Positions 1 to 57,952 are shown, counted from the stretch's first letter. The stretch: 64,000 bases of DNA from a bacterium (GCA_016125005.1 WGMQ01000005.1:1-64000), one strand, 5' to 3'. Translations and numbers: made by a program. The notes: a model not told the origin generated them from the letters alone.

Positions 1-635
1 ACCAGAATGGTCCACCGAGCCCAGCGCGTCGTCAGCCAAAGCCGGAGCGACTTGATCGGTAGAATGGTCAGCGGAAGAAAGTACCAGAAGAAGAACGCGA
101 CAATGTGGTTGATGGTCGCTCCGATCAGGACCAGGTCGATCACGATGTAAATCGACAAGACGACGGTCGAGGCCCAACCCGTGAGCAACCCCCAGATGAC
201 GCTCCCGAGGACCACCTCGGAATCGCTCATGCGCGTGAGGTAGAGTTCCACCAGCTCGTCGCCGGTCCGCGTCGTCGCGAAACAGAGAAACATGAGCGGT
301 GGAAGAAGGAACCCCAGCGGAAACATCACGATGGCAAGTGCAAGGCGGATCCGCAAGGATGGGTAGAAGATAAGCAGAGGGAGCCAGAGGTGCAGGATGA
401 GCCCGCTGAAGAAGAGTATCCTCATCGCGGTGCCGCGCTTCCAAGGCGCCAGATAGACATAGAGCGGATTGTCGCGGCGACATTTCCAAAGCGCGAGCAA
501 ATCGGTGGCGGAGTGAGCCTTGGCCTCGACTGTAGCCGCGCGAACCGCCTCGCGTTCGCGCGCATGCTGTGTATAGACAGAGCGATTCTGCTCGCTCAGC
601 GAAGGCGCTTTCGGCTCGGTCCCTGACGGCTCCAT
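1..635 (-). CDS. Membrane protein, ABC-2 permease-like (3' truncated by window)
   Basis: The frame is open from an ATG at 635 to the window edge, so about 211 codons are visible. A soluble charged N-terminus of about 70 residues is followed by four hydrophobic stretches (about 71-91, 98-120, 143-171, 177-194). Between the second and third lies TGDELVELYLTRMSDSEVVLG (124-144), which resembles the short loop of ABC-2-type exporter permeases where TGE...LLLTPLS..EIVLGK is common. It lies 72 bp downstream of the importer permease gene on the same strand, so cotranscription is possible. A GTCTATAC element lies in codons 18-22. Function beyond a membrane protein is inference; a similar protein is encoded at 57143-57952. 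Confidence 0.7.
   Translation of the reverse strand, partial: MEPSGTEPKAPSLSEQNRSVYTQHAREREAVRAATVEAKAHSATDLLALWKCRRDNPLYVYLAPWKRGTAMRILFFSGLILHLWLPLLIFYPSLRIRLALAIVMFPLGFLLPPLMFLCFATTRTGDELVELYLTRMSDSEVVLGSVIWGLLTGWASTVVLSIYIVIDLVLIGATINHIVAFFFWYFLPLTILPIKSLRLWLTTRWARWTIL
571..578 (+). repeat. GTATAGAC element 1
   Basis: Exact octamer on the plus strand, inside the membrane protein gene; read in the coding sense it gives GTC TAT ACA (Val-Tyr-Thr). Flank: AG on the 3' side. Confidence 0.75.
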
Positions 636-707
636 GAAACCCTCCCCCCCGCGTGACCCAACCGTGGCAATTCATCGCGAAGAGTCGAAAGACACAAGGG
701 GAACTCC

Positions 708-1586
708 CTACTTCTCCAAGCCCCAGCGACGCCGCACGGCGCGTTCGGCCGTTCCGAAGATCAGCAGGTCCACCAGCAGCCCGATCGCGAGGATCGTGAT
801 GACCGACGCGAACATCAGCGCCATGTCGTTGAAGTCGCGACCGACCTGAAGCTGGGCGCCAATGCCCGCCACATCCGCGCGGATCAGCTCCGCCGCCATG
901 AGCGCACGCCACGCAAACGTCCAGCCCACCTTAAGCCCGCCAAGCAACTCGGGAAGCGCCGCAAAAAAGAGCACGTCCTTCGCCAATGCCAGTCGCTTGG
1001 CCCCGAGGACACGCCCCACCTTTGTATAGATCGGCGGCACGTTGCGGATCGCCCCCTCGGTGCTGATCGCGATGGCGAACAGGGCCCCGAGGACGATCAC
1101 CAGGATGATCGCATTCTCGTTGATGCCAACCCAGATGAGGGCAAACGGCAGCCAGCAGATGCTCGGCAGCGATTGCAGCGAAAGCACCATGGAACCGATG
1201 GTTTGGCGCACATACCAGTTGCGCGCGATGAGCGTCCCGAGCGCCACGCCGCCCACCACCGACACACTGTACCCGATGGCCATGCGACCGAAACTGCTCA
1301 ACGTCGATGCCAGCAGCGAGCCGTCGGAGACGATCCGCTGGAACGCCGCCAGCACGCTTCCCGGATGCACCAGGTGGAACACACCCTCGGTGTCTATGCG
1401 CGGTCCGATCAGCGGTGGGAAGAGATACGTTGGCACGCCCGAGAAGGCCGTCACCAGTTCCCACAGGATCATCAGCCCCAGGATGAAGGCCACGCGGATA
1501 GCAAACGCCGCCCACGGCGACGGCTGGTTCTGAATCTTGATCGCAGCGCCACGCACCTGCACGCTGTCCATGCTCGCATTGCTCAT
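708..1586 (-). CDS. ABC importer permease, SsuC/TauC-type
   Basis: This 292-residue integral membrane protein has the BPD_transp_1 layout of nitrate/sulfonate/taurine permeases: a cytoplasmic N-terminus of about 25 residues, a first TM near 27-48, and further TM segments from about 100 to 275. The cytoplasmic EAA loop that docks on the ATPase is visible around residues 178-222, with GAIRNVPPIYTKVGRVLGA and LGGLKVGW. Its ATG overlaps the TGA of the binding-protein gene by 4 nt (ATGA), which implies translational coupling. It would form the membrane channel of the importer with the ATPase at 2626-3477. The substrate cannot be read from the sequence; sulfonate or taurine is favoured by family and by the sulfate-assimilation genes at 18.6-20.8 kb. 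Confidence 0.88.
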   Translation of the reverse strand: MSNASMDSVQVRGAAIKIQNQPSPWAAFAIRVAFILGLMILWELVTAFSGVPTYLFPPLIGPRIDTEGVFHLVHPGSVLAAFQRIVSDGSLLASTLSSFGRMAIGYSVSVVGGVALGTLIARNWYVRQTIGSMVLSLQSLPSICWLPFALIWVGINENAIILVIVLGALFAIAISTEGAIRNVPPIYTKVGRVLGAKRLALAKDVLFFAALPELLGGLKVGWTFAWRALMAAELIRADVAGIGAQLQVGRDFNDMALMFASVITILAIGLLVDLLIFGTAERAVRRRWGLEK

Positions 1587-3477: not shown

Positions 3478-3600
3478 GAAAAGTCGCCTAACCCGATCAG
3501 AATGGTAGGGATTAGAGACCGGACTCCCCGGACGGCGTCAAGAGGGAAGGGCGATCCTTCCTAAGCGGCTGTGCGTTACCAATTGCCCACGGCTACAACT

Positions 3601-12537: not shown

Positions 12538-14967
12538 ATGCGCATTTCGGTTCGTTGGCTCCAGCAATACCTCAAGACGGACGTACCGCTTCCGCGGCTC
12601 CTCGACCTGATTACCAACTGCGGGCTTGAAGTTGAGCAGGTCATCGACCTCGGCATGGTCTCCGGCAAGCTCATCGTGGGCGAGATCCTCAAGATCGAGG
12701 CCGTCGAGGGCGCCGGCAAGGTGCGCCTCTGCACAGTCATGGCCGACGAGAAGGAGCCGCTCAAGATCATCTGTGGCGCCCAGAATATCAAGGAAGGCGA
12801 CTACGTCCCCGTCGCCAAGTTCGGCATGACCTTCCCGGACGGCATGGTCCTGAAGCCCCGCAAGATCATGGGGATCGAGGGCCAGGGCATGTTGTGCAGC
12901 GCCAAGGAACTTGGCGTGGCCGAGGACGCCGACGGCATCTGGCTCCTCCCCCACGACTACCCCATTGCCGAGCCGGTCGATGCACTCATCGAGATTTCCA
13001 TCACGCCCAATCGCCCCGACGCCCTCTCGGTGATCGGCGTGGCGCGCGACCTGGCCGCGAAGATCAATGCGCTGAAGGACGGTCGCTCGCGCGCCTCCTT
13101 CGAATACCCGAGCCTTCAGATGGAAGAGTCGGTCACCGAGAAGACCGAATCCGCCGTGCGCGTCACTCTCCAGGCCCGCGAGGACTGCGGTCGCTACACC
13201 GCGCGCGTCGTGCGCGGCGTGAAGGTCGGCCCCTCCCCGCGCTGGATGCAGATCGCCCTCGAGGGCGCAGGACTCCGCCCCATCAACAACCTCGTCGACA
13301 TCACCAACTATGTGCTCCTGGAAATGGGGCATCCGCTTCACGCCTTCGACCTGGACAAGGTCAGCGGCCAGCAGATCATCGTTCGCACCGCGCAGCCCGG
13401 CGAGAAGATCAAGACGCTCGACGACGCCACGCAGGAACTGGCCGCCGGTGACCTGCTCATCTGCGACGCGCTCAAGCCCATCGCGCTGGCCGGCATCATG
13501 GGCGGCGGCAACAGCGAGATTTCCGAGGGCACCACGAACGTGCTCATCGAGAGCGCCTGGTTCCGTCCCTCCACCATCCGCCGCACGGCGAAGCGTCTAG
13601 ACAAGTCGACCGACGCCAGCTACCGCTTCGAGCGCGGCACCGACCACGTGAAGCTCACCGCGGCCCTCAATCGCGTCGCCCAGCTCATGTGCGAAATCGC
13701 CGGTGGCACCGTGCTGAAGGGCATCGTCGATGTGGTCGGCGTCCTGCCGCGCAAGGAGCCGGTCACCGTGCGCATCGCCCGCGTGAACAAGGTGCTCGGG
13801 CTGGATCTATCCGGTCGCGATATCGTCGACGTGCTCACCCCGCTTGGCTACGCGGTCCCGCGCTCCGACCGCGAGGTGATCCAGGTCGAAGTCCCTCCCC
13901 ATCGCCCCGACGTCTCCATCGAGGTCGACGTGATCGAGGAAGTCGGCCGCATCCTTGGCTATGATCGCGTCGCCGAGAAGGGCCTCGTCTTCCCCGGCGT
14001 GTATAGACAGCCCGCGCCGATCCAGCGCGTCCGCGAGCAGCTCGCCTCCGCCGCGATCTCGCAGGGCCTCACCGAGGCCATCAACTTCTCCTTCGTCAGC
14101 GAAGGCGCGAACGCCCTTGTCGGCCTGGCCGATCAGGGACAGGTGCAGGTCCTCAATCCGATCACGTCGGACCAGAAGGTCATGCGCCGTTCCATGCTTC
14201 CCTCGCTGCTCCAAAATGTGCTCCATAACTTCAACCACGGTGTGGAGGAGGTCGCGCTCTTCGAGCTGGGCCACTCCTACGCCTTCCTTCCCGAGGACGA
14301 CGCCCCGCGTGACCGCAAGAACATGACGCCTCCCGCGGTGGAGACGCCCTGGTTCGCAGCCGTGGTGGCGGGTGGCGGAAAGCCGAACTGGAAAGAGGCG
14401 GAAAGCGAAGCGGACTTCTATCAGGTCAAGGGCCTCGCCGAGTATCTGCTCGGGATGCTCGGCATCGGAAAACTGGTCGTGGAATCGAGCGACGCCAAGT
14501 GGCTCCACCCGGGCCGCAGCGCCCGCTTCCTAGTCAAGGGACAGCCCGTCGCCACCTTCGGCGAGATCCATCCCGCCATCCTCAAGGAACTCTCCATCAA
14601 GCGGCGCGTGGCCTACTTGGAGATCCCGCTCGATGGCCCGATCCTGGACGTGGCGGGGTTGCCCAAGATCGGCGAGCCGCCCCGCTTCCCCGCGATCACG
14701 CGCGACATCGCGCTTGTCGTCGATAGCACCGTGCGTTCGCTCGACCTGGAGCGCACCATCCGCAAGGCCGCGAAAAACCTGCTCGCTGGCGTCAAACTGT
14801 TCGACGTTTACGAGGGCGAGCACGTGGGTCCGGGGCGCAAGTCACTCGCCTACTCGCTTGTCTATCGGGCCGAGGATCGCACGCTGAAGGAAGAGGAAGT
14901 GACCGCGGCACACGGCGAGGTGCTCTCCGCACTCGAGCGCGAGCACAAGGCCACGTTGCGCTCCTGA
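12538..14967 (+). CDS. pheT: Phenylalanine-tRNA ligase beta subunit
   Basis: The 809-residue protein has the standard bacterial PheT architecture. The N-terminus MRISVRWLQQYLKTDVPLP is followed by an EMAP-like tRNA-binding domain (about 40-150, VGEILKIEAVEGAGKVRLC), then B3/B4 (SITPNRPDALSVIGVARDLAAK, GHPLHAFDLDKV), B5 (EVPPHRPDVSIEVDVIEEV) and a C-terminal ferredoxin-fold anticodon-binding domain (PRFPAITRDIALVVDS, about 715-809). The ATG at 12538 matches the family N-terminus; the frame extends upstream to 12325 but that part is not conserved. The partner pheS, normally just upstream, is absent from the window. An exact GTATAGAC lies in codons VYRQ (14001). Confidence 0.95.
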   Translation: MRISVRWLQQYLKTDVPLPRLLDLITNCGLEVEQVIDLGMVSGKLIVGEILKIEAVEGAGKVRLCTVMADEKEPLKIICGAQNIKEGDYVPVAKFGMTFPDGMVLKPRKIMGIEGQGMLCSAKELGVAEDADGIWLLPHDYPIAEPVDALIEISITPNRPDALSVIGVARDLAAKINALKDGRSRASFEYPSLQMEESVTEKTESAVRVTLQAREDCGRYTARVVRGVKVGPSPRWMQIALEGAGLRPINNLVDITNYVLLEMGHPLHAFDLDKVSGQQIIVRTAQPGEKIKTLDDATQELAAGDLLICDALKPIALAGIMGGGNSEISEGTTNVLIESAWFRPSTIRRTAKRLDKSTDASYRFERGTDHVKLTAALNRVAQLMCEIAGGTVLKGIVDVVGVLPRKEPVTVRIARVNKVLGLDLSGRDIVDVLTPLGYAVPRSDREVIQVEVPPHRPDVSIEVDVIEEVGRILGYDRVAEKGLVFPGVYRQPAPIQRVREQLASAAISQGLTEAINFSFVSEGANALVGLADQGQVQVLNPITSDQKVMRRSMLPSLLQNVLHNFNHGVEEVALFELGHSYAFLPEDDAPRDRKNMTPPAVETPWFAAVVAGGGKPNWKEAESEADFYQVKGLAEYLLGMLGIGKLVVESSDAKWLHPGRSARFLVKGQPVATFGEIHPAILKELSIKRRVAYLEIPLDGPILDVAGLPKIGEPPRFPAITRDIALVVDSTVRSLDLERTIRKAAKNLLAGVKLFDVYEGEHVGPGRKSLAYSLVYRAEDRTLKEEEVTAAHGEVLSALEREHKATLRS
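14001..14008 (+). repeat. GTATAGAC element 2
   Basis: Exact octamer in pheT, read GTG TAT AGA CAG (Val-Tyr-Arg-Gln). Same 10-mer GTATAGACAG as element 1. Confidence 0.75.
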
Positions 14968-15620
14968 TGGCCACCTTCGAGAGCTTCTTCCACTCAACCG
15001 TCCAGCCTTACATCGGGGCTGGGCGGTATGCCGTTGCCATCACCGACATCGAGGAATTCTTTCCCCAGCTCGGAAGCGACTTCGACCGGAGCGAGGCCTT
15101 CCACTGGCTCGCGTCCCTGCACGCCATCCTGGGCTCGAAGGCCCTCACTGGTGGGGACGTCGAATCGGCCCGCAGCCACTTCGGCGACGTGCAGGAATTC
15201 GCCATCAAGGCCCTCGACCTCTTCGCCAACAGGCCCGACACGCTCGTCTTCCTCGCCCGTTTCTGCCTGTCGCCGATGGGCCAGCCGGAACGCGCCTTCC
15301 CGCTGCTCGAACCTTTCGAGGAAGGGCACCGTATAGACGCTCCGGCGCTCCTCTTCTACGACCATGTGCGGCTGGTGCTGCGCGGTGTGGTGCTGGCGTT
15401 GATCGGCAGCACCGAGGAGGCCTTCGAGGACTGGCGTGCCGCCTATTCGCGGCGTTTCATGGATCTGGCGCCGGAGCGTTTGGACACGGCATCGCTCTTC
15501 TTCGTCGGCGTGATGGGGACCAGCCTGCCGGAGGCAGAACTGAACGGACTGCTGGCGACGCTGGCGGAACTCGGTGTCGATTCGGAACGCATCGAGTCGT
15601 TGCGCACGCGCCTCGCCTAA
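14967..15620 (+). CDS. Hypothetical protein coupled to pheT
   Basis: The start ATG shares its A with the pheT stop (TGATG), implying translational coupling. The 217-residue product has no signal peptide or TM segment. Its helical pairs, such as FHWLASLHAILGSKAL / VESARSHFGDVQEFAIKAL and ERAFPLLEPFEEG, look like degenerate TPR or alpha-solenoid repeats. No named family is recognised. It ends 3 bp from the stop of the convergent beta-helix gene. A GTATAGAC element lies in codons RIDA at 15331. Confidence 0.75.
   Translation: MATFESFFHSTVQPYIGAGRYAVAITDIEEFFPQLGSDFDRSEAFHWLASLHAILGSKALTGGDVESARSHFGDVQEFAIKALDLFANRPDTLVFLARFCLSPMGQPERAFPLLEPFEEGHRIDAPALLFYDHVRLVLRGVVLALIGSTEEAFEDWRAAYSRRFMDLAPERLDTASLFFVGVMGTSLPEAELNGLLATLAELGVDSERIESLRTRLA
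15331..15338 (+). repeat. GTATAGAC element 3
   Basis: Exact octamer read CGT ATA GAC GCT (Arg-Ile-Asp-Ala), with the uncommon Ile codon ATA. Confidence 0.75.
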
Positions 15621-15623
15621 ACC

Positions 15624-17159
15624 TCAGCGATAGTCCATCCAGCGATCATCGGCGGCGGACGTCTGCTCCTCGCCAGCCTGATAGATATAGACGGATTGGG
15701 GCGTCATGTCCTCGCGCATTCCCACGCCCTCTGTATAGTCAAGGGGGAGTGCGGCAAAGCCGTTCGATGAGCCGAGGTTCACCGCCGAGCTGGTGCCAAC
15801 GACGTAGCCAAGGCCATGCTGCGCCGACCACACGCTGGTCGACTGATCGCTGTCGATGTTCCAGAAGGTATTCTGTGTCCCCGAAATCCCGTGAAGGATC
15901 GGGGCTCCGTAGGGACGATGCACGCACTGCCAGTAGTCGCCGATTCCCACGTGGCTATCGACCAGGTTTTCGTGGCTTAGGTGCATGTGATAGTCGGTGA
16001 AAAACCGGGGATTCACCGAGGTGTTGTGGTAGAACACGTTGCCGTTGCACATGGCCATCAGCGGGGTGAACGAGCGCCGCGCCTTCTCCGAGTAGTTGTC
16101 CCGGAAGAGATTGTCGCAGCCCCAGACGAAGAAGTGATAGCCGTTCCAGGTGTCGTTCTGGTTCTGCGACTCCAGGATCGTACAGCGCCGCACGGTGATG
16201 TGGCGCGAGTAGGCCAGCTCGATGCCGCGCGACGGAATCAGCGGCATGTAGACGTCCTCGATGAGGCCGTTCTCGATGTTGACGAACTTGATGGCCGTGG
16301 CCGACGTGGTCTGCGCAGCGCCAAGCCCCGAGTCGAAGGTGGAAGCAGGGTTCCGGTCGTATAGGATCTGAAGGTTCGCCACCGAAAGATCGCGCACGAT
16401 CTTCGTCGGCGGAAAGCAACGGGCCTGGTCGCGCACCTTCACCGGATAGCGAATCGGAATGTCGAGTTCGTAGCCATCCGCCAACACCGCCGTGACGGTC
16501 CGCAGATAGGCTGGATAGTCCATCGCGGTGGTCCAGTACGGCGTCATCGAGTGCTCGGCGATGAACTCGGTCGTAGGCGTGCCCGTCACCACCAGCAGAT
16601 CGCCGACGGCATAACCGGGCGAATCCACCTTGATGATCCGCGAATTGGCAGCCACATCGGCCGTGAGGAATTCGCTCGTGGCGATGACCCCCTGCCGCAC
16701 CCACGAATCGGGATAGCTCTGGCTTCCCCAGTGAGTTTGGTAGGCCGAGACCCCAGCGAAAAAAACGGACGAGAACGAGGTGTTTGCCCCTGGCACGTAG
16801 AGGATCGTCTGGCCGGGACCAGAGCCCTCGACGCGAACACCTTCCTGCTGCATCGCGAGGCCCGTGGTGCTGATCTGCCAGACGCCGGGACCCAGATGAA
16901 CCGTGCCGCCCCCGTTCGCGCCAACCTGGTTGATAGCCGCTTGGATCAGCGCCGTCGTGTCGCCCGACTGATGAACGAGCGTCACCACTTCGCGATTCCA
17001 CTTCGCCCAGGCTGCCGTCTGGTTCACGAACCCCGCCTGGCGAAAGTCGATCGCATCCGGGTTGTTGTGAACGTCGTAGCGCGACAGGATCGTGGGTGTC
17101 CACGCCGCAGCCAAAGCTGGGATGGCGGACAGGACGGCGATGATGTGCGGGAACTTCAT
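15624..17159 (-). CDS. Secreted beta-helix protein (pectate-lyase-3 / GH28-like fold)
   Basis: The 511-residue protein begins with a signal peptide (MKFPHIIAVLSAIPALAAA). The block TALIQAAINQVGANGGGTVHLGPGVWQIS (about 70-98) is the usual entry of right-handed beta-helix carbohydrate-active proteins, where a glycine-rich turn precedes the first coil. Later rungs include NIENGLIEDVYM, HITVRRCTILES and FRDNYSEKARRSFTPLM. It probably binds or cleaves a polysaccharide outside the cell, but no catalytic set could be assigned. The gene stands alone on the minus strand, 23 bp before the mlaE stop. A GATATAGAC variant lies near its 3' end (15684-15692). Confidence 0.75.
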   Translation of the reverse strand: MKFPHIIAVLSAIPALAAAWTPTILSRYDVHNNPDAIDFRQAGFVNQTAAWAKWNREVVTLVHQSGDTTALIQAAINQVGANGGGTVHLGPGVWQISTTGLAMQQEGVRVEGSGPGQTILYVPGANTSFSSVFFAGVSAYQTHWGSQSYPDSWVRQGVIATSEFLTADVAANSRIIKVDSPGYAVGDLLVVTGTPTTEFIAEHSMTPYWTTAMDYPAYLRTVTAVLADGYELDIPIRYPVKVRDQARCFPPTKIVRDLSVANLQILYDRNPASTFDSGLGAAQTTSATAIKFVNIENGLIEDVYMPLIPSRGIELAYSRHITVRRCTILESQNQNDTWNGYHFFVWGCDNLFRDNYSEKARRSFTPLMAMCNGNVFYHNTSVNPRFFTDYHMHLSHENLVDSHVGIGDYWQCVHRPYGAPILHGISGTQNTFWNIDSDQSTSVWSAQHGLGYVVGTSSAVNLGSSNGFAALPLDYTEGVGMREDMTPQSVYIYQAGEEQTSAADDRWMDYR

Positions 17160-36776: not shown

Positions 36777-36803
36777 ATCTCCCCTCCCAGGACCCCCAAC
36801 CCC

Positions 36804-41316: not shown

Positions 41317-41717
41317 GTTCCCCAGCAATCAAGCAGACATTGGCCATGAAGAAGTGGGCCGTCGTGGGTGCCAGCGACGATCCGGGCCGCTATGGTTACA
41401 AGATTTTCCGCGTGTTGAGGGACGCGGGTCACACTGTCTATCCGATCCATCCCACGCTCGCCGATATAGACGGTGTCGCGTGTCACGCCCGGCTCAGCGA
41501 CCTGCCTGAAGTTCCCGAGGTGGTCGACATGGTCGTGAATCCTCGGGTCGGAATCAAAGTCTTCGAGGAGATCGCGGCGCTCGGCATTCGTTACGTCTGG
41601 CTTCAACCGGGCACGCGCAGCGACGAGATTCGCGAGTTCGCTCGGCAGCATGACATCACCCTCGTGGAGGATTGCGTGCTGGTTCGCATCGGCCGCGAGG
41701 AGGCAACGAATGGATGA
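41313..41717 (+). CDS. CoA-binding domain protein, YccU-like
   Basis: The 134-residue protein is a single Rossmann CoA_binding_2 domain: KKWAVVGASDDPGRYGYKIFRVLRDAGHTVYPIHP (nucleotide-binding loop) and EVVDMVVNPRVGIKVFEEIAALGIRYVWLQPG. It ends EFARQHDITLVEDCVLVRI as in the family. The function is unknown; it probably binds CoA. Its start overlaps mfd by 4 nt and its end overlaps yggS by 8 nt, so the three genes form one operon. Confidence 0.9.
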   Translation: MSSPAIKQTLAMKKWAVVGASDDPGRYGYKIFRVLRDAGHTVYPIHPTLADIDGVACHARLSDLPEVPEVVDMVVNPRVGIKVFEEIAALGIRYVWLQPGTRSDEIREFARQHDITLVEDCVLVRIGREEATNG

Positions 41718-42402
41718 GCTGGAGCAGCGCATCGCCGCCAACGTCGCGCGTGTCGAGGCCCGCATCGCGAGCTCCTGCGAGCGTAGCGGGCGGCGGCGCG
41801 AGGACGTGCTGCTACTCTGCGTGACGAAGCAACGCCCCGATGCAGCACTCCAAGCGCTGTATAGACAAGGCCACCGTGCCTTTGGCGAGAATCGCGCGCA
41901 GGAAATCCGCGAGCGCATCCCGTCGTTCCCCGCGGACCTCGAATGGCATTTCATCGGGTCGCTGCAAACGAACAAGGCAAAGTACCTGCCGGGGCTCGTG
42001 AGCGTGCTGCATTCGCTCGACCGGGCCGAACTCGCGCAGGCTCTCGACAAGGCGTGGCAGCGCCATCCCGAGCTGCCTCCGCTCCGTATCATGCTTCAGT
42101 TCAACATCGCTGAGGAGGCGCAGAAGCATGGCGCCGGGCAGGACGCGGCGTTGGACCTGCTGAAGGCGGTGGGGGAGTGCCAGCGCCTCCGCGTGGAGGG
42201 CCTAATGGCCATGGCGCCCTATGGCGAGGTGGCCGAGGCGTCGCGCCCCGTCTTCCGGGCCTTGCGGGAACTGCGGGATCACATGCAACAGACGACGGGA
42301 ATCGCGCTTCCGCATCTTTCGATGGGAATGACAGGCGACTACGAGGTGGCGATCGAGGAAGGTGCGACGATCGTTCGCGTGGGGACAGCCCTCTTCGAGT
42401 AG
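41710..42402 (+). CDS. yggS: YggS/PLP-homeostasis protein
   Basis: The 230-residue protein is a PLP-binding family member that buffers pyridoxal phosphate. Characteristic blocks are LLLCVTKQRPDAALQALYRQG (Lys of the PLP Schiff base in the VTK motif), FGENRAQEIRERIP, EWHFIGSLQTNKAKYLP, and HLSMGMTGDYEVAIEEGATIVRVGTALF. The start ATG 41710 overlaps the CoA-binding gene. Its 3' end overlaps the convergent YfhO-like gene by 64 bp. Confidence 0.93.
   Translation: MDELEQRIAANVARVEARIASSCERSGRRREDVLLLCVTKQRPDAALQALYRQGHRAFGENRAQEIRERIPSFPADLEWHFIGSLQTNKAKYLPGLVSVLHSLDRAELAQALDKAWQRHPELPPLRIMLQFNIAEEAQKHGAGQDAALDLLKAVGECQRLRVEGLMAMAPYGEVAEASRPVFRALRELRDHMQQTTGIALPHLSMGMTGDYEVAIEEGATIVRVGTALFE
41859..41866 (+). 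repeat. GTATAGAC element 9
   Basis: Exact octamer in yggS, read CTG TAT AGA CAA (Leu-Tyr-Arg-Gln). A GATATAGAC variant lies in the preceding gene at 41463-41471. Confidence 0.75.
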
Positions 42403-44327
42403 CCAAGCGCGAAGGCCACCAGGCCGAGCCCCAGAGCCCCCAGGAACAGGCCCGCGCGCCACGAGAAGGGTCTATACAGCCACACCAGTTCGGACTCGCC
42501 TGCGGGGACCGTCACGGTGGTCTCCAGTTCTGGCGAATCGGCCGTCTCGACCAGACTTCCGTTCAGCCATACTTCCATTCCCGGGCCGAGGGTCTCGCGG
42601 ACGCGGACTTCTCCGCCCTGGGAACTGAGTCGCAGTTTGCGGACATTGGGCGTTCGCTCCACCCATTCCACCGAATCCAGGCCAACGCCTGAAACTATTC
42701 CGGGCATATCGGAAAACGGCACGACGGAGCGTCCCAGCGTGGGAAAGTGCTCGGCGATCGGCTCCTTGCTGAGTGGCGCCACCACGAGACGCACGCCGTT
42801 GGCTTGGAACCAGTCCAACGTGTTGTACCCCAATCGGTCGTCATCCGCCAGCCGCGCGCCATAGGAGATCGGATGGTAGCCGCGCAGGCTCCGCCGCCCG
42901 AACAGGATCGGACGCAGCGACAGATCCGAGGCGGCGTCGTGCACGTCGAGGGCTCGATCCTTCTCTCCGAGCCACAGATCCAACTCGGTGGGGGAGAGGA
43001 AATCGCGCTGATATTGTGCCCATGGAAAGGCGAAAAGGAAGTGCATGTTCGCCGCGAGGAGTGAAACGATCCCGAGCGCGAGAACTCCTCCTGCCACCTG
43101 CGCGCGCCAGCGGAAGCGACGCGCGAGTTGCAAGGCGTGGGATACTCCGATGCCCGCCAGCACGGGAATGGCGAGCGCCGTTGCCGCGAAGAACGTTCCG
43201 GGACTGCGGAAGCTCTTGAAGCCGGGCGCATAGATGTATAGAAAGCTATACAATGGCGTATAGCGGCCGAGACCTACGACCAGAAAGAACCCGCCGAGAA
43301 GAAGCCACGGTGCGGCGCGGCGCCAACCGGCGCCGACCACCGATAGACAGGCGAGGGAGACGAACACGAGTCCCGCGTGGTCGCTGACGATACGCTCGCC
43401 CCACTCGCCGCGGTATTCATCGCCAAAGACCGACGATCCCTTGAAGCGAGGCATCACGAACTCGGCAATCTCGCCCGGCGGATAGCTTGTCTCGACAGCC
43501 TCCTCAAAGCTGACGCCGGAGGCCCGATTGGAAAGCGCGCTCATCTCGACCCCGGGAAGCAACTGCGGCCCAGCGGTGCAAAGCCCCACTGCAATCAATG
43601 CGATCAACCCCAGCACGGCAGGAGTGCGCCGCATCAGACTGCCGCGCCGCAGCGCCAGGAACCAGCCACCCATGACGACCGAGCACACCATCCCAAGCCA
43701 CGCGATCTGTGGATGGCCACAGAGTAGCATCATCGCCAACCCGAACGCACCGGTTGCGATTCCTCCCATCAAATGGCGGCGTGCGGGTAGCCGCCCCACC
43801 TGGGTTGCTCCTGCAAGCATCCACGGGAGCCACGCGAGCGCCATGACCTTCTGGAAATGTCCCGCGTGGATCAGAGTCACCAAATGACCGGCCAGCATCC
43901 AGGCCACGGCGGTGAACAATGCCGGGAATGCACGCAGGCCGGTCACGCGCCCTAGGCGCAGTCCACCGAAGCCTGCGATGACTAGACACAGCCACCAAGC
44001 CGCCTTTTGTGCCTCGGGGAACTCGAGAAAGAGAAAGGCCCAGGCCTGTGGCGCAAACGGCGTCCAAAGGAACGAGCCAACGCTGGGGAGACCTCCCTGT
44101 ACTTCAGCGATCCAGAGCGGAATCGTGAAAGGGGCGCGGGCGACCTGCTGCTGAATCCATACCTGCACCACCGCGTCGTGCGCGAAGGTGTCTCGCCCGT
44201 AGAGGAACCAACGCCCCGGATGGGTCGGATCCAGTGATCGGCTTGCGACGAACAACTGGACGAAGGCAAGTAGCGGTATAGCAAGATAGATTAATAGATG
44301 TCTATATCGCAGGAGCTGGCGTCCCAT
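42339..44327 (-). CDS. YfhO-like polytopic membrane protein
   Basis: The 662-residue protein has about twelve TM segments, beginning LLIYLAIPLLAFVQLFVA, a long luminal loop (about 60-95, SRSLDPTHPGRWFLYGRDTF), and a TM helix near the end (RAGLFLGALGLGLVAFALGY). Layout and repeated TM pairs resemble YfhO-type bacterial membrane proteins, which are GT-C-like and thought to glycosylate teichoic acids or lipids. The start is ATG 44327, sharing its A with the stop of the upstream gene (TGATG). The long frame to 44615 is rejected because it would overlap that gene. The gene ends 64 bp inside convergent yggS. Confidence 0.7.
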   Translation of the reverse strand: MGRQLLRYRHLLIYLAIPLLAFVQLFVASRSLDPTHPGRWFLYGRDTFAHDAVVQVWIQQQVARAPFTIPLWIAEVQGGLPSVGSFLWTPFAPQAWAFLFLEFPEAQKAAWWLCLVIAGFGGLRLGRVTGLRAFPALFTAVAWMLAGHLVTLIHAGHFQKVMALAWLPWMLAGATQVGRLPARRHLMGGIATGAFGLAMMLLCGHPQIAWLGMVCSVVMGGWFLALRRGSLMRRTPAVLGLIALIAVGLCTAGPQLLPGVEMSALSNRASGVSFEEAVETSYPPGEIAEFVMPRFKGSSVFGDEYRGEWGERIVSDHAGLVFVSLACLSVVGAGWRRAAPWLLLGGFFLVVGLGRYTPLYSFLYIYAPGFKSFRSPGTFFAATALAIPVLAGIGVSHALQLARRFRWRAQVAGGVLALGIVSLLAANMHFLFAFPWAQYQRDFLSPTELDLWLGEKDRALDVHDAASDLSLRPILFGRRSLRGYHPISYGARLADDDRLGYNTLDWFQANGVRLVVAPLSKEPIAEHFPTLGRSVVPFSDMPGIVSGVGLDSVEWVERTPNVRKLRLSSQGGEVRVRETLGPGMEVWLNGSLVETADSPELETTVTVPAGESELVWLYRPFSWRAGLFLGALGLGLVAFALGYSKRAVPTRTIVAPSSIATS
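42470..42477 (-). repeat. GTATAGAC element 10 (GTCTATAC on plus)
   Basis: Exact octamer in the YfhO-like gene, read in its coding sense CTG TAT AGA CCC (Leu-Tyr-Arg-Pro). A GTATAGAA variant lies at 43236-43243 and a GATATAGAC variant in the same gene at 44300-44308. Confidence 0.75.
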
Positions 44328-45616
44328 CAGTATTCCACCGACGCAATGGGCGAGAGCCGCAGGAGCCGCACGGCACGCTCCACCATTGGCTGCAATTCGG
44401 TAAACTCGCCCGATTGGCGGAGTGACCTTAGGACCTTGACCATGTCGCCGCGCACCTTCGCAGCGTCCTCGTATTTGAGCGCGCCGAGCGAGTAGCGAAA
44501 AAACTCCTCCAACTGGCGGAAAAACGGCCCCAGCTTTTCGTGCGATTGAAAGCGGAGGGCCAGCTCCAGCACCAGCCGTTGCGCGGCCGTGATGGGCTCC
44601 ATTTCGACGGCACAATCGATGCCCCAGTAGATCTGAGCCCGCGGCAGCGTCTCCTCCACGGTGAGGTCCGGTTCGAGCAGCATGTAGCCAAGAGCCCCTA
44701 TCGTCGCCAGCTTGCCGATGGCGGCGGGGAGCGCCTCCTCGGTAGCCGCGCCTAGCATGAGAGGCACGGGGTCCGAGTCGAGCGCATCAATCGTCGGGAG
44801 CGATTCGCGCAGGTGGCCATCGGGATCCATCACCACCAATTCGGCCAGGACGCCGCTTCGGATCGGATCAAGCCAGGGCGTGAAGGCGTTCTCGACCGGC
44901 GGAGCCTCGATCACCCCGATTACATGCAGGTTCTGGCGCACGACCTGGCCGCGAGCCTTCATGGCGGAGAGGAAGTGATGAAGCTCGTGCAGGCGCCACT
45001 CCTCGATGCTCGCGAGTGTTTCGCTCGATGGCTGGTTGAGGAAGTCCTCGATGTCTATACCAAGCTCGCGGGGAATGCGCTCGAGGCAGCTGTAACCAAG
45101 ATGGGTCCAGCTGCGTGGGTCGCGGGTCGTGCGCGGGATTCGACGCAGGTCGAACACGATGCCATCGACGGGATGACCTTCGACGATGGCGACCAGAAGG
45201 TTTGAAAGGAAGCGGCGGAAATCGATCGCCGTCCAGCAGAACAGGCCCGGAAGCGTCGGAAACTGATTCACGCGATGGCGCCCACGCGACGTCCGAATGA
45301 GCCAGTTGCGATGACCCGCCGCCAGATTGCCCAGGCGGCGGGAACCCACCGCTCCTGCGCTCAGAAAATCAACGCCGAGGAAGACGGAGAGACCGGCCTC
45401 GTGGGCCGCCCGGAGCGCATCTCTTCCATGACAACCTGTGCCGCGCAGCTCTCCCGACTTGTCGGCCCAAAAGCACACGCTCCCCTCGCTTAGCACGGGA
45501 ATCACCACCGCGTTGAAGCCGCGCTGGCGAATACGCGCGAAAAGTTCGCTTGGCTCCAGTTCCAGGAGCCACTCGCGCCGCACCTCGCAGCATTGCGTTT
45601 GAAGGGGGAAATCCAT
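44327..45616 (-). CDS. Glycosidase-like TIM-barrel protein (GHL10-type)
   Basis: The 429-residue protein resembles glycosyl-hydrolase-like GHL10 proteins: LFARIRQRGFNAVVIPVLSEGSVCF, then DALRAAHEAGLSVFLGVDF, and IVEGHPVDGIVFDLRRIPR (the DGIvfDyiR strand carrying candidate catalytic Asp). There is no signal peptide at the chosen ATG 45616, so the protein seems cytoplasmic or otherwise exported. A longer frame to 45898 adds Cys-rich sequence that looks non-coding. It is translationally coupled to the YfhO-like gene. Function is inferred from fold only. Confidence 0.6.
   Translation of the reverse strand: MDFPLQTQCCEVRREWLLELEPSELFARIRQRGFNAVVIPVLSEGSVCFWADKSGELRGTGCHGRDALRAAHEAGLSVFLGVDFLSAGAVGSRRLGNLAAGHRNWLIRTSRGRHRVNQFPTLPGLFCWTAIDFRRFLSNLLVAIVEGHPVDGIVFDLRRIPRTTRDPRSWTHLGYSCLERIPRELGIDIEDFLNQPSSETLASIEEWRLHELHHFLSAMKARGQVVRQNLHVIGVIEAPPVENAFTPWLDPIRSGVLAELVVMDPDGHLRESLPTIDALDSDPVPLMLGAATEEALPAAIGKLATIGALGYMLLEPDLTVEETLPRAQIYWGIDCAVEMEPITAAQRLVLELALRFQSHEKLGPFFRQLEEFFRYSLGALKYEDAAKVRGDMVKVLRSLRQSGEFTELQPMVERAVRLLRLSPIASVEY
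45053..45060 (-). repeat. GTATAGAC element 11 (GTCTATAC on plus)
   Basis: Exact octamer in the glycosidase-like gene, read GGT ATA GAC ATC (Gly-Ile-Asp-Ile). Confidence 0.75.
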
Positions 45617-48440: not shown

Positions 48441-50735
48441 ATGTCCGGCCTGACCTTCGTTTACGACCTCGCCATTGTGGCCGCCGTCGCGGGATTCGCC
48501 GGACTTGCATGCAGACGGATCGGACTGTCCACCGTCGTCGGATTCCTCGTTGCGGGAATTCTCGTTGGTCCCTACACGCCTCCGTTTCAGTTGGTGCAGG
48601 ACGCCGAGCAGGTGCGCGTTCTTTCCGACTTGGGATTGCTCTTTCTCGTCTTTGGCATCGGCCTCAGCTTCAGCGTCCGGCGGTTGCAGCGCCTCGGCAT
48701 GGGAATGATCCTGGCCACGGCGATCGGGGCTCTACTGGTCCTGGCCGGTTCCCGCCTCGCTTCTTCCCTGTTTGGGTTCACCACGCAGCAGGGCCTCTTC
48801 ATCGCCGCGGTGTTGATGGTGTCCAGCTCTGCAATCATTTCCAAGGTGCTGGAGGAGATCGGCTCGAACCACACGCGCTGGGGACAGCTCTCGCTCGGCA
48901 TTACGCTGCTCGAGGACATCGTCGCGGTCGTGATGATCACGCTGCTCTCCTCGCTCTCGACCGCCGCGGGAGAGCAAGGCTCCCTGTGGCAGTCACTGCT
49001 TTCGTTCACCGGATTCGTCGCGGTGCTTTTCCTCGTGATCCTGCTGCTTGTGCCGCGCTTGCTGAGGCACCTCAAGGCAACCGCTACGGACGAGCTTGTC
49101 ATGCTCCTCGTCGCAGGACTGCTACTCGTGCTGGGCTGGTCAGCGGTACAGCTTGGCTATTCGATGGCGCTCACCGCCTTCATCCTTGGCGCGATCATCG
49201 GCAGCACACCGCAGCGCCAGGACGTCGATCGGCTGTTCGAGGGGATGCGGCATCTCTTTGGCGCCGTGTTCTTCGTAGCGATGGGGATGATGTTCGACGT
49301 GAGCAAGCTCGCCGATTTCTGGGTGGGGTTGCTGGCGCTCGCTGCTGCGGCGTTCGTGCTCCGCATTCCCGCGACGGCCCTCGCTTTGGCCTTCGTCGGT
49401 AACGGCACCCGCGACTCGCTCCGCGCCGCCTTCTCGCTCACTCCGCTCGGCGAGTTCTCCTTCGTCATCGCCTTCCTCGGCGTGCAGACCGGCGTCATGC
49501 CGGAGGAGTTCTATCCCGCCGCCGTCGGCGCCTCCCTCCTCACCTGCATGCTGTCGCCCATGCTCATCAAGCGCGCCGAGCCAGTGGCACTCCGCGTCGA
49601 GTCGCTGATCCCGGCGAGGCTGCTCCAGAAGTTCGAGGACTACCGCGCTTGGCTCGCGAACGTCGAGCGCACCAGCTCCGCCAGCGACACTTGGCAACGC
49701 ATGTCTGCCGTCATTGGCCGCACCATCGTTCACCTGCTCCTGATCGCCGGATGCCTCGCGCTGCTCACGCCGGCATACGAGTTCGCGCGCGAGAGCTACG
49801 GCCCGAACTTTCTCTTCCCATCCGGCACCACGATCCTCTTCGTCCTGGCCACGGGCGTCATCATCCTGGTGCCGCTTCTTTCCGTGTGGAGGAATCTCTC
49901 GATCCTATCGGGCCTCATCGCCGAGTCCACCGCGCGCGTCGGCACCGCCCCGGCGCTCCAGCGCGTCATCGAGCGCGGATTCACCATCCTGCTCTGTGCG
50001 TTGATAACGCTGTGGCTCCTCGCTGTCGTCCCCGCAGACGTCGTCGGCGCCCCCGCATTCGGCATCGTGATCCTTCTGCTGATCGTCACCGCGGTGGTGC
50101 TTTGGAGAAACTTGCTTGGTCTTCAGGAAAGCTGGAGCCAGCGCGTCCAGGAGGAACTCGCCCGGGAGGGTCTCCCGTCGCAGGAAGTGCCCCAGTGGAA
50201 CATCCAGTCCACGCGCGCCGAGGCCGAATGGAAGCTGAACGTAAAGGAGATCGTCATCCCCGCCAACTCAAGCCACGCCGGCCGCCAGCTCCTTGAGCTG
50301 CGCCTCCGCAACCAATGGAGTTGCTCCGTCGTCGGCATTGATCGCCAAGGCTACGCCATCAGCAACCCATCCGGTACCGAACGTCTATACCCGGGCGACC
50401 GTGTGCTTCTCCTCGGCGAGGACCAGAACCTGGCGCAGGCCGCCGCATTCCTCAACCAAGGCGCCGAGCGGCCCGACTGGACCGACCTCTTCGACGAGCT
50501 GCTGACGGAACTGGTCACCGTCCCGCCCGTCGCTGCCTGTGTGGACAGCACGCTGCTCGATCTGGATTTCGCGAACCGCTTTCGGATTCAAGTGGGTGGC
50601 ATCCGCCGCGACGGCGTCGAGACCCTGAGCCCCAGCGCCCAGCTCCGCATTCGCCCCGGCGACGAGCTGCTGCTCATCGGCACCCACGCCAACATCGCCC
50701 GCTTCCGCGAGTTCGTGGCGCAGGAGCTGGGTTAG
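48441..50735 (+). CDS. Kef-type cation:proton antiporter with C-terminal TrkA_C domains
   Basis: The 764-residue protein has an N-terminal Na+/H+ exchanger domain of twelve TM segments (about 1-380; GLSTVVGFLVAGILVGPYTPP, SSSAIISKVLEEIG, LGITLLEDIVAVVM). A second group of four TM helices (about 430-560) follows, then two TrkA_C domains (about 590-660 and 690-764: KEIVIPANSSHAGRQLLEL, LRIRPGDELLLIGTHANIARF). The KefB/KefC family exports K+ under ligand control, but the NAD-binding TrkA_N domain of Kef is replaced by the extra TM region. It converges on yceD with a 4-bp overlap. Confidence 0.88.
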   Translation: MSGLTFVYDLAIVAAVAGFAGLACRRIGLSTVVGFLVAGILVGPYTPPFQLVQDAEQVRVLSDLGLLFLVFGIGLSFSVRRLQRLGMGMILATAIGALLVLAGSRLASSLFGFTTQQGLFIAAVLMVSSSAIISKVLEEIGSNHTRWGQLSLGITLLEDIVAVVMITLLSSLSTAAGEQGSLWQSLLSFTGFVAVLFLVILLLVPRLLRHLKATATDELVMLLVAGLLLVLGWSAVQLGYSMALTAFILGAIIGSTPQRQDVDRLFEGMRHLFGAVFFVAMGMMFDVSKLADFWVGLLALAAAAFVLRIPATALALAFVGNGTRDSLRAAFSLTPLGEFSFVIAFLGVQTGVMPEEFYPAAVGASLLTCMLSPMLIKRAEPVALRVESLIPARLLQKFEDYRAWLANVERTSSASDTWQRMSAVIGRTIVHLLLIAGCLALLTPAYEFARESYGPNFLFPSGTTILFVLATGVIILVPLLSVWRNLSILSGLIAESTARVGTAPALQRVIERGFTILLCALITLWLLAVVPADVVGAPAFGIVILLLIVTAVVLWRNLLGLQESWSQRVQEELAREGLPSQEVPQWNIQSTRAEAEWKLNVKEIVIPANSSHAGRQLLELRLRNQWSCSVVGIDRQGYAISNPSGTERLYPGDRVLLLGEDQNLAQAAAFLNQGAERPDWTDLFDELLTELVTVPPVAACVDSTLLDLDFANRFRIQVGGIRRDGVETLSPSAQLRIRPGDELLLIGTHANIARFREFVAQELG
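50383..50390 (-). repeat. GTATAGAC element 12 (GTCTATAC on plus)
   Basis: Exact octamer in the Kef-type gene, read CGT CTA TAC CCG (Arg-Leu-Tyr-Pro). Confidence 0.75.
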
Positions 50736-51295: not shown

Positions 51296-51521
51296 GGCGG
51301 CAAGGTACTCCGGGCATACTCCCCCGCGCGAGGCTTCTCTGCGCGAAGGGGAAAGGAATCTGGGTCTGTGGCCGCCACCCGTCAATGCCAACCGGCGAAC
51401 AGGTGGGAGCGCCACACTCGGTTCATTCGCCTATTTGTTTGCGATTTAGAATTCCATTGCGCCCGGTCTCTTGCCCGTCGATGTTGAGATCGTTTTCATC
51501 GAACCAGCGGAAAAAACTTCC

Positions 51522-54500
51522 ATGTCATTTCTTCGGATTCTTGTCCGAGTCTTGGTGTGCGGAACCCTTTTGGTGTCTGCCTCGGTCTGCTTGTCACAGA
51601 CCATCGCGGACGAAGTTCCCCCATTCTCCTACGATGGTCCTTCGGTCGATCCTTTGCCGATGCTTGAAGTGGAGGAGCAGTGGGCGGGCGATCAGTCACT
51701 CCTCGGCCTTTCCCCGGGAAAAGCGTGGAGCGGCACCAAGTCCACCGAGTCAATTTCCTGCGGCGACAGTGATGAGCTGGGTTTTTTCTGCACCCTCCCG
51801 GGATGTACGGACGATTTCGATGGTAGCTTTCTGGGTGACGACTGGCGCTTCAGCCTGAGCGGGCCTCGTGTCGTCTCGTTGACGATGGAGGCCCCGACGT
51901 TCCAAGCGGTCTTGTCTCTATACAATCGATCCACAGGTGTGACCCTTGCAGGTGGAGTTACGGCTTCCGCGGGCGGGAGCGTGACCGTCACAATGCCCCT
52001 CCCCCCGGGCAACTACGGTGCCGTTGCATACCCCCGCTACATTGCCGACGTTGATTACTTCACCCCCTACTACATGAGCCTTTCTTGCACTGAGGCGAGG
52101 ATCACCGACTTGATCCTCACGCCGACTGTCGGGAATTGCTCCGCGGAGATTACGGCGCCGCAATACGGTCAGCCTGTCGCCGTCGGGCTTCGATACCGGG
52201 TGGTCGGAGAAGAGACACTCGACTTGCGCTGGCTAGTTTATGTAAATAATGTTTTTGTTGCTGATACCTTCCTCCCCGAAACCGATCCGGGAACAACCTT
52301 CTGCGACACCGTTTCCGAGTCGCGGACACTCCCGGTCGGCACTTCGTCCGTGTATTCGGAGTTGTACGCCGTTGATCCTGCGACGGGAGCCCTCGTCCTA
52401 ATGTCCTCCCGGACCGAGCAGTTTACGGTCACGGCTCCCACCGTCGATTTTGCTCCCGGCGTCCTACAATTTCTCTCAAGTCCCGCGCAGCCTAACTCGG
52501 TCCTGCCACTTCCATTCCGACCGGGTCAGGCTGTCTATCCTTCTGTTCAAGTGCTTGCGGCGGGTGTGACCAGCGCGTTGCCCTTACCCGAGCCAGTCGG
52601 CGGTCAGGTCGCCGCACTGTCCGTCCCCGTGCGGTTTTCCTTCAACGGACAGACAGTCGGCACAGCCACAGCCATCGTGACTTCCCAAGGTGGCGTTGCA
52701 ACGTGTCAAACTCCATGGATTATTCCCGAGGACCCCGCTTCTCCTGGATTCGTGCCCCGCCCGTTCCTGCTTACCGTCGAAGTTGACTCGCCAAACACCC
52801 ATTCCGAGACGAACGAACAGAATAATGTCGCCATCTACGATCTCCTGCCGCCGATCGATCTGTCCATCGCCAATTTCCGGTTCCTGCGTGATCCCAACGA
52901 CCTAGGAACCGCGACGCCGACCCCTGCTGATGGGGACTTGCTTTACCCGGAAGTCTACTTCAACCACACGTTCCCAATCGCGATCAACGGTACCATGAGG
53001 GCCTACCTTACCGACAGCACTGGCAGTTCGGCGGTGCAGACAAGTGAGGTGACAGTCACGGCGCCCGCAGGGACCACGGCCACTCGTGCCGTTGGGGCCA
53101 CGCCCCTCGTGTTTCGCGCCGGTCGATCCTATCTGTTCCAGGCCTTTCTGGATCCGGACGGCGCGTTCATCGACCCCAACCGCTTCAACAACTTCCACTC
53201 CGCCACCTATCTCATCCCGAACGCCGATCAGATCCCGCCCGTGCGCATCCCGGTTCGCACGGTCAGTGCAGGTGCCCCTGCGGGCGTTGCGAGGACGGCG
53301 GACGGTCGGCTGACTGCGGTCTTCGGTGGAGGTGGGGTCACGCTCCTTTCCGAATCCGAGCAGGGGATCGCCCGTCGACTCGAAGGCGAGCTGCGCGCAA
53401 CGGTCGGCGCGGCGTTTTCCCCCACCGGGGATCGCGTCGCCGTGGCCACGCTCAGGAGCGGGGCGAGGATCTGGGAACTTGCGACCAATACGGTCAAGAA
53501 GGAGCTTTCCGGCAACCAGGACGTCTCCGCCATTGCCTGGTCCCGTGACGGATCGCGCATTGCGGTCGGCACGGATGGCGGGGTGTTGCTCCTCTATTCC
53601 GGCACCGCTCCATACGGCCTGCTCGCCACTTTGGCTCCCCACACAACCCGCATCCGCGCCATCGATTTTGACCCAGCGAGGAGCGTTGTCTATACAGCCT
53701 CGGACGACGGCGGGCTCATCGCCTTCGACTACGTGCAGGGGTTCTCACCCTTCGCAAAGCTCGTGGATCCGATCGGTGCCACGGCGCTGCTTCCCACCTC
53801 CACCGGAAAGCTCTTCGCCTGCGGGAGAGGGGGCACGGTGCGCTGCTTCGACCAGCAGTCCGGCACGGAGCTTTGGTCGTCGGCCATCGGCCAGCTTCAC
53901 CCGTCCACGGTCGGCGGGGCTCAGTTCCCATCCGGTGCGTTCTCCCTCCAACTCGGCACAACATACCTGTACGCGTTCTTGGAAAATGGGATCGTTTCGA
54001 GGATCAACGTCTCCAACGGGACGGAGGTCAGCCACTTCGCGCCTACCAACATTACCCTGTTGGGAGTTCTCGATCCTCAATCGGACACGGGAACCTTCGC
54101 TTCCCTCACGGGTACCGTTGGCCGGTGGAATTTGGCCACGGGCGTCCGGATCGGCGGGGCCCTTCTCGACCAGCCCGGCAAGCTCTATGGTGCCGCTTAC
54201 GCCAAGGGTGGCGCTTACTTCGTCGCCGCGGGTCAGGATACCAACCTGAATGTCTGGAGCACCGATGACTGGACGCTGAAAGCGCGGCTGACAGGAAACC
54301 AACAGCCAATCGTCGGGGTCGATGCGGCGGACTCGCAGCCGCTGGCTATCACAACTGGGCTCGATGGAACAGTGCGACTTTGGGATCTGGATGCATCGAC
54401 ACAGATCCGAAGCACCAGTATCCCGGGCTACCCAAGCACCCCCGCTTTCTCTCCCTCTGCGGATCGGTTTGCGGTGGCTTCCAACGTTGCATCCACCGGC

Positions 54501-56252: not shown

Positions 56253-56342
56253 GAGCATTCCGGCCCCCTTTCGCTTGCTCCATGCGCGGGAGGCGGGATT
56301 TGTCGTGGTGTCGTCAGGATCATTCCGTCCAAAAGCCCCGTC

Positions 56343-57143
56343 ATGAGTTCTGCTCCTCCCTCCACGTTGACTGTCACTGTGCTCGGTTCCGGGACGTCGG
56401 CGGGGATTCCTGTCGTGGCTTGTGACTGCGCCGTTTGTCGCTCGACCAACCCGCGCAACAATAGGCTTCGTTCCAGCATTCTCATGAGCGGCGAAGGCGT
56501 CGACCTGCTGGTGGATTGCGGTGCGGACTTTCGACAGCAGGCGTTGCACTTCGGCATCGGTCGGCTGGATGCGGTGCTCCTCACCCACGCTCACAGCGAC
56601 CACATCGCCGGCATCGACGAGATTCGTCTATACAACTGGAAGCAGGGAGCGGCCATTCCCTTCTTCGGCACGGCACCCACGTTCGATAGTCTTCGTCGCC
56701 GCTTCGACTATATCTTCGAGCCCATGCAGGCGGGTGGCGGGGTACCGCAGCTCGACATGCGAGAGATCGACCGCGAGGCGTTCGAGGTCTGCGGCCTGCG
56801 TGTCACACCGCTTCTGGTGATGCACGGAAAGCTCCCGGTCACCGGCTTTCGCCTCGGTGACTTCGCCTACATCACCGATGCCAGCTTCATCCCGCCGGAG
56901 ACGCTCGATCAGCTTGCGGGCGTGCGCTACCTGATCCTCAACGCGCTTCGCTACAAGCCCCATCCCACGCACTTGAGCATCAGCGAGGCGACGGAGATCG
57001 CGCTTCGCATCGGCGCGGAGCGCACCTACTTCACGCACATCAACCACGACCTGGATCACGACGACGCGAACAGCGGCCTGCCGCCCGGTGTTGAGTTGGC
57101 CTGGGACGGCATGCGCTTCGACATTCATCCCGAGGCCTGGTGA
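56343..57143 (+). CDS. PhnP-like metallo-beta-lactamase-fold hydrolase
   Basis: The 266-residue protein has VLGSGTSAGIPVVACDCAVC (PhnP Cys-rich entry), DLLVDCGADFRQQAL, the metal motif THAHSDHIAGID, and a final TYFTHINHDLD. This is the PhnP/YcbX-type phosphodiesterase branch of the MBL superfamily, cleaving cyclic phosphates. No phn operon is present, so the substrate is open. Its stop overlaps the next start by one base. Confidence 0.9.
   Translation: MSSAPPSTLTVTVLGSGTSAGIPVVACDCAVCRSTNPRNNRLRSSILMSGEGVDLLVDCGADFRQQALHFGIGRLDAVLLTHAHSDHIAGIDEIRLYNWKQGAAIPFFGTAPTFDSLRRRFDYIFEPMQAGGGVPQLDMREIDREAFEVCGLRVTPLLVMHGKLPVTGFRLGDFAYITDASFIPPETLDQLAGVRYLILNALRYKPHPTHLSISEATEIALRIGAERTYFTHINHDLDHDDANSGLPPGVELAWDGMRFDIHPEAW
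56626..56633 (-). repeat. GTATAGAC element 14 (GTCTATAC on plus)
   Basis: Exact octamer in the PhnP-like gene, read CGT CTA TAC AAC (Arg-Leu-Tyr-Asn). Confidence 0.75.
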
Positions 57144-57952
57144 TGGCCTGGAGCGAGTCCCGCCCACTGCTCGCGCGCCAGTTCGTGCGCCTCGGGCGAC
57201 TTGGGTGGAGATTCTGGCTCGGCGTCGTGGTCGCGTGGATTGCCGTCAGTTGGTCGCTTCGCGTGTGGGCGCTCGACTCACTATTCCTCGGCGGCTTCGG
57301 ATTCGCGGCGGAGCTATTGCTGAGCCCGCTCATCTTCGTGCTGCGTATAGACGTCGCGCTGGCGATCCTGCTCCAGATCCAACTCTGGCCGCGCGACGAG
57401 TGGGAGCGCATGGCCCCTCAGCTTCGCCTCACGGCGCTCACCAGCCGGAGCCTCCTCGTTGCGCGCACAATCCCGACGCTGGCGGTGCTCTTCCTCCTCA
57501 ATACCCTGAGTGCCCCCTATTTCTACAGCGACGTGGCATTCATGCGATTCGGTGAGGAACGCTGGGCCGAGATGCTCGTTGGCGCACTCTCGGCGCTTGG
57601 CGCATGGTTCGAGGACCTTACCTTCGCCGCGGTGTGTGTGTTATGCGCGGCGCGTCATTTGGCGGCCACCGAAGTCCCAGTGACCACTGCCTTGTCGCGA
57701 TCATTGATCGGGATTGCAGTGCGGGGGTTGTTGATCGCCGTCGTCGCCTCCAGCCACGAGCTGGTCGCCGCCGGGTTCTTGGTCCTGTCGTCGAGCTTCG
57801 GATACTCGCTCAACCAGACGGCGCTGTTTCTCGCGATCTCCCTGGCTCCCGTCGCCTTCGTGCTGGCCTTGGAGGTCTGGCTGATCTTCCGACTTTGGCG
57901 TGCCACCGCCCGCGAGTTCGAGGAGCGGTGGGGGAGCGAGGCGTTCGGTTGA
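57143..57952 (+). CDS. Polytopic membrane protein, ABC-2 permease-like
   Basis: The 269-residue protein has about six TM segments (WRFWLGVVVAWIAVSWSL, FGFAAELLLSPLIFVL, IPTLAVLFLLNTL, LTFAAVCVLCAA, GIAVRGLLIAVVASS, LALEVWLIFRL). WERMAPQLRLTALTSRSLLVART recalls the permease loop seen in the truncated membrane protein at 1-635, so the two may be paralogues. No ATPase is adjacent. The ATG shares its A with the PhnP-like stop (TGATG). Confidence 0.65.
   Translation: MAWSESRPLLARQFVRLGRLGWRFWLGVVVAWIAVSWSLRVWALDSLFLGGFGFAAELLLSPLIFVLRIDVALAILLQIQLWPRDEWERMAPQLRLTALTSRSLLVARTIPTLAVLFLLNTLSAPYFYSDVAFMRFGEERWAEMLVGALSALGAWFEDLTFAAVCVLCAARHLAATEVPVTTALSRSLIGIAVRGLLIAVVASSHELVAAGFLVLSSSFGYSLNQTALFLAISLAPVAFVLALEVWLIFRLWRATAREFEERWGSEAFG
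57345..57352 (+). repeat. GTATAGAC element 15
   Basis: Exact octamer read CGT ATA GAC GTC (Arg-Ile-Asp-Val) in the membrane protein gene. Confidence 0.75.

Follow-up and report, generated by a model that had tools for sequence, protein, structure and literature searches.

An over-represented octamer in a Sumerlaeota genome

Why does the same octamer, GTATAGAC, recur so often in one stretch of bacterial DNA, and what might recognise it? The stretch comprises 64,000 nucleotides (GCA_016125005.1 WGMQ01000005.1:1-64000; hereafter the window) and contains 15 copies, of which the original prediction had expected at most one by chance; 100 dinucleotide shuffles of the window yielded a mean of 0.21 and a maximum of 2. 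TATAGAC occurs 20 times, and the five additional places are all ATATAGAC, a one-off form whose class is enriched 14x in the source genome (G000). The sites are as follows; sense and antisense refer to the gene.

571..578, +, GTATAGAC word (TGTATAGACA), in ORF 3-635(-), antisense
14001..14008, +, GTATAGAC word (TGTATAGACA), in pheT (Phe-tRNA synthetase beta), sense
15331..15338, +, GTATAGAC word (CGTATAGACG), sense
15685..15692, +, one-off form ATATAGAC
18569..18576, +, GTATAGAC word (TGTATAGACA), close to the start of ORF 18032-18604(-)
24189..24196, -, one-off form ATATAGAC
24838..24845, -, GTATAGAC word (CGTATAGACG), in a TPR/Ser-Thr kinase gene, antisense
25828..25835, +, one-off form ATATAGAC
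26248..26255, -, GTATAGAC word (TGTATAGACG), antisense, V-Y-T frame
38832..38839, +, GTATAGAC word (CGTATAGACG), in mfd, sense, Y-R frame; orthologue without the word in 4 relatives
39887..39894, +, GTATAGAC word (CGTATAGACA), in mfd, sense, I-D frame; orthologue without the word in 4 relatives
41464..41471, +, one-off form ATATAGAC
41859..41866, +, GTATAGAC word (TGTATAGACA), in an alanine-racemase-like gene, sense
42470..42477, -, GTATAGAC word (TGTATAGACC), sense
44300..44307, -, one-off form ATATAGAC
45053..45060, -, GTATAGAC word (GGTATAGACA), sense
50383..50390, -, GTATAGAC word (GGTATAGACG), in a CPA2-type antiporter gene, antisense
53688..53695, -, GTATAGAC word (TGTATAGACA), in the gene of a 1593-aa beta-propeller-like protein, antisense, V-Y-T frame
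56626..56633, -, GTATAGAC word (TGTATAGACG), in an MBL-fold hydrolase gene, antisense
57345..57352, +, GTATAGAC word (CGTATAGACG), sense

How many of the 15 words lie in intact genes, given as 14 in the original prediction, varies with the gene-calling method (15 with a longest-ORF call, 13 with a codon-trained call). The window also encodes a 972-aa protein (59696-62614, +) whose C-terminal part resembles the thrombospondin type 3 cell-surface proteins CglD and MtsD of myxobacteria. The 1593-aa protein (51471-56252, +) has TolB/YfgL-like propeller matches and a weak caspase match (EACC1-associated type), and a GlmU-like protein of only 344 aa (36744-37778, +) matches about the first 310 of about 450 positions and probably lacks much of the acetyltransferase part.

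The source genome is a metagenome-assembled genome (MAG) of an uncultured member of Candidatus Sumerlaeota (4.69 Mb in 112 contigs, 88.5% complete), and the Mfd protein encoded in the window shares 57-70% amino acid identity with Candidatus Sumerlaeota MAGs, more than with other phyla. The over-representation is extreme, genome-wide, and present on both strands: the assembly holds 1,078 copies of GTATAGAC (576 forward, 502 reverse; 230/Mb for the exact word) versus 22 (10 and 12) of the reversed control word. A literature search revealed no report of such a word in Sumerlaeota, and a search with the octamer itself returned, among the matches listed, only unrelated chance occurrences.

Pressure on DNA rather than on protein

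Codon context and consensus were analysed in a 395-kb sample of G000, which outside the window consists mostly of contigs already known to hold words and therefore has a higher word density (301/Mb) than the genome as a whole; genes were called with a codon-trained script of our own. Words occupy all five stop-free frames, not merely the four originally noticed, at 29-188x the codon-frequency expectation, and are absent from the stop frame of the called genes. Given the actual proteins and their synonymous codon usage, 8.3 words are expected and 112 were found, a 13.5x excess that codon usage does not explain; eight control words reached 0-2.3x under the same null. At amino acid positions able to host the word, odds ratios range from 56 to 352, values that are somewhat inflated because the host peptides are partly made by the word itself.

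Proteins are rewritten by the word. Val-Tyr-Thr, encoded by the commonest frame, reaches 45 per 100,000 residues in G000 versus 2.4 and 5.1 in two word-less relatives (G003 and G007), an approximately 11-fold increase, and 51 of the 53 occurrences in the sample are spelled GTCTATAC, that is, with the word. Spelling it takes in even the rare codons CTA, ATA, and AGA. The earlier suggestion that different amino acids in different frames point to selection on DNA is thus strongly supported: selection or drive acts on the DNA and not on codons or protein. That the word merely reflects codon-pair usage, repeats, or a peptide motif without DNA-level function is hardly credible despite the prevalence of the V-Y-T frame, since a codon artefact is rejected by the all-frame enrichment and the synonymous-usage null, V-Y-T is itself rare where the word is missing, and a dispersed repeat or MITE is rejected by flanks that are unconserved past about two bases.

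A quasi-palindrome with genus-specific dialects

In the G000 sample, the motif extends to YYGTATAGACRR, with TGTATAGACA as the optimum; its eight positions are nearly invariant, and flank information fades about two bases beyond the word. Exact copies are enriched 94x, sequences with one mismatch 2.2x, and those with two or more mismatches 1.0x. (These values rest on variant counting, which replaced an EM motif search without constraints that had picked up codon periodicity in several of the genomes.) One-off forms in G000 concentrate at the first and last base, with 35 copies of GTATAGAT versus 1.2 expected and 13 of ATATAGAC versus 0.9. The same end bias was found in G006 and G004, was weak in G002, and was not seen in G001.

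The word consists of two facing half-sites, TGTAT and TGTCT, but is not its own complement. In G000 and G006, the most frequent one-offs include the mirrored end changes G1 to A and C8 to T, and G004 tolerates both G1 to T and C8 to A. Across five genomes, tolerated substitutions correlate at mirrored positions (mean r 0.51, permutation p 0.025; weak in G001). The palindromic form GTATATAC is enriched in all six genomes that carry the word (64-197 sites versus 0-10 in family f2), but the asymmetric form outnumbers the palindromic forms 119:7:1 and its enrichment is about five times higher (94x versus 18x); the other palindrome, GTCTAGAC, is either missing or no commoner than background. Mirrored tolerance and the enrichment of GTATATAC are moderate evidence and suggest a putative recogniser with two-fold symmetry and an asymmetric optimum.

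The dialect varies from genus to genus around a conserved ATAGAC core. Whereas G006 resembles G000, G001 and G005 add GTATATAC, G004 adds TTATAGAC and TGATAGAC, and G002 carries AGATAGAC and ATATAGAC alongside GTATAGAC. Genome-wide counts of TTATAGAC agree with these assignments (346 in G004, 27 in G000, 7 in G001); AGATAGAC is raised in G002, G004, and G006, yet just about twofold over its control. Clade-restricted dialects are also a property of the DNA uptake sequences (DUS) of Neisseriaceae and the uptake signal sequences (USS) of Pasteurellaceae, and the DUS dialects share a common CTG core (PMC3630211).

Restriction to one family and turnover of positions

The word is enriched in six of the seven genomes of the family (247-1,078 copies), and the seventh, G003, is at background. 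In the other families of the order, class, phylum, and domain that were searched, the word is at or near background. No substitute word was found in 140 kb of G003 or in 200 kb of G007 (family f2). As the sole family member without enrichment, G003 keeps ComEC, ComEA-type, and secretin genes and represents a natural control in which the word was lost or never gained.

Comparison with relatives, which the original prediction had proposed, showed that word positions turn over between genera, whose Mfd proteins are about 65-71% identical. Among orthologous genes with 25 words of G000 and seven of the relatives, just one position coincides (counted from both sides). The presence of the same word at different places implies that recognition, and not the sites, is conserved, and that the word is maintained by a trans-acting recogniser rather than by descent of individual sites.

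Distribution within the genome

The word is strand-neutral with respect to the chromosome (eight plus and seven minus in the window), as originally noted, but not with respect to genes: in the sample, 80% of the words are antisense (90:22), close to the 84% predicted from codon frequencies, although the window itself is about even. Adjacent words point the same way in co-directional genes (31:6) and mostly opposite ways in opposed genes (7:4), which indicates that orientation follows the gene strand. In this fragmented MAG, there was no sign of replication-strand polarity. These small numbers support the view that the word, although a short over-represented octamer like Chi and KOPS, differs from both in following the gene strand with no sign of such polarity.

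There is no intergenic excess, neither in G000 (7 words versus 12.4 expected) nor in the summed genomes (29 versus about 30), and the sample contains one close inverted pair, so that a role as terminator is rejected. The words are clumped (Fano factor 2.3 at 5 kb), and short spacings are slightly over-represented. The clumping is mostly gene-scale; apparent word territories above this scale are weak, with a between-gene autocorrelation of 0.1-0.16 below 1.5 kb. One gene fragment without a Pfam match (L013:17373-20000, -) carries eight words in 2.6 kb, all antisense and in three frames.

Word density in G000 declines from 683/Mb in the quintile of genes with the lowest codon adaptation to 132/Mb in the highest, a trend that the relatives, with their smaller samples, did not show; a sampled rpoC region and a sampled purA/hisG stretch contain no words. 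Density showed no trend with the presence of homologues in relatives, a weak test because the relatives were merely sampled.

A candidate DNA-uptake word

The best single candidate for the function of GTATAGAC, which falls just short of an even chance, is the one listed first among the original suggestions: a putative self-recognition word for DNA uptake, spread by biased uptake and recombination. Word-bearing fragments would be favoured by a putative receptor on the competence and type IV pilus apparatus, alleles lacking the word would acquire it as such fragments recombine with the chromosome, and copies would pile up wherever protein constraint permits. We infer that the recogniser would be this uptake receptor and recombination the driver. 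The explanation is ranked first because of the machinery encoded, the core-sharing dialects, the antisense excess, the build-up in less constrained genes, and an enrichment of the size reached in simulations. USS and DUS show an excess of the reverse complement in genes (PMC2346458), and uptake words have been argued to accumulate in less constrained regions. Simulations required uptake biases of 104 for H. influenzae and 478 for N. gonorrhoeae (PMC1939737), to which the odds ratios at coding sites are comparable.

The search for ComEA and pilin genes envisaged in the original prediction returned matches to both, but ComEC, HHH_3 (ComEA-type), and secretin domains are present in all 13 genomes searched, including word-less relatives. 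The occurrence of competence and type IV pilus genes in the carriers is therefore non-discriminating and does not explain the distribution of the word. G000 has 52 N-methyl (pseudo)pilin-like and five secretin matches, for example on contigs C34, C62, C79, and C109; several of the pilin-like genes are clustered, which suggests that type II secretion or pilus-like systems are numerous. A survey of Sumerlaeota MAGs reported genes for type IV pilus-dependent twitching in all MAGs studied but did not mention competence (PMC8092238).

Further points against an uptake word are its quasi-palindromic form, the enriched palindrome, and the mirrored tolerance, because neither USS nor DUS is palindromic. 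Also unlike the situation in Neisseria, there are almost no inverted pairs and no overall intergenic excess.

Intracellular recognition as an alternative

The quasi-symmetry would sit more easily with a word like HIP1 (GCGATCGC) of cyanobacteria, an explanation that we rank second, as somewhat less likely than an uptake word. Here, a dimeric DNA-binding protein, methyltransferase, or repair factor would bind the quasi-palindrome inside the cell, and biased repair or selection on binding would create and keep the copies, as has been proposed for HIP1. Like HIP1 and the alternate HIPs, GTATAGAC is an octamer found throughout coding DNA with near two-fold symmetry; its copies are clumped rather than evenly spaced, its palindromic variant is enriched too, and clade-specific substitutes are also known among HIPs. 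One-offs at the first and last base have likewise been reported for HIP1 (PMC4390886). However, the word is not a true palindrome, given the minority status of GTATATAC and the background level of GTCTAGAC, and it is AT-rich in a GC-rich genome. The density of HIPs, about 500-2500/Mb (PMC4390886), is above that of the Sumerlaeota word. Of the two methyltransferase families searched (PF01555 and PF02086, not an exhaustive set), neither tracks the presence of the word, which lends no support to the methylation site considered earlier.

Rather improbable is a binding site for a nucleoid-associated protein that organises, silences, or segregates the chromosome. A dimeric binder would suit the quasi-symmetry, and the higher density in poorly codon-adapted, variable genes, the word-free rpoC and purA/hisG stretches, and some gene-scale clustering would fit as well. 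On the other hand, the words show no intergenic preference and no sign of replication polarity, their clustering between genes is weak, and about 1,000 sites per genome contrast with the tens known for matS, SlmA, and Noc.

Known systems and significance

To our knowledge, self-recognition words for uptake have been described only in Neisseriaceae and Pasteurellaceae, and HIP1 has been described only in cyanobacteria. Of the word classes known, these two, uptake words and HIPs, are the ones that occur in such numbers and at such locations. The receptors for DUS and USS are ComP or, as predicted, ComN/PpdA. The Sumerlaeota word resembles DUS and USS as a short word with a sharp consensus and about a thousand copies on both strands, and in its core-sharing clade dialects, antisense excess within genes, and co-occurrence with competence and type IV pilus genes. 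It differs from them in sequence, in belonging to an unrelated phylum, in being quasi-palindromic, in its lower density, and in lacking inverted-pair terminators. Somewhat speculatively, it may represent a third, independently evolved uptake self-recognition system, in which a quasi-palindrome would be read with two-fold symmetry, unlike the pilin-read DUS and USS, and which would rewrite proteins genome-wide.

This independent occurrence in a distant phylum, complete with dialects, turnover of positions, and a sister genus that lacks the word, offers a natural experiment on how such words originate, are lost, and change, and the rewriting of amino acids (Val-Tyr-Thr) gauges how strong the drive is relative to the constraints on proteins. 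Should the octamer prove to be an uptake word, it would indicate that an uncultured phylum undergoes natural transformation and would provide a tag for the delivery of DNA to Sumerlaeota.
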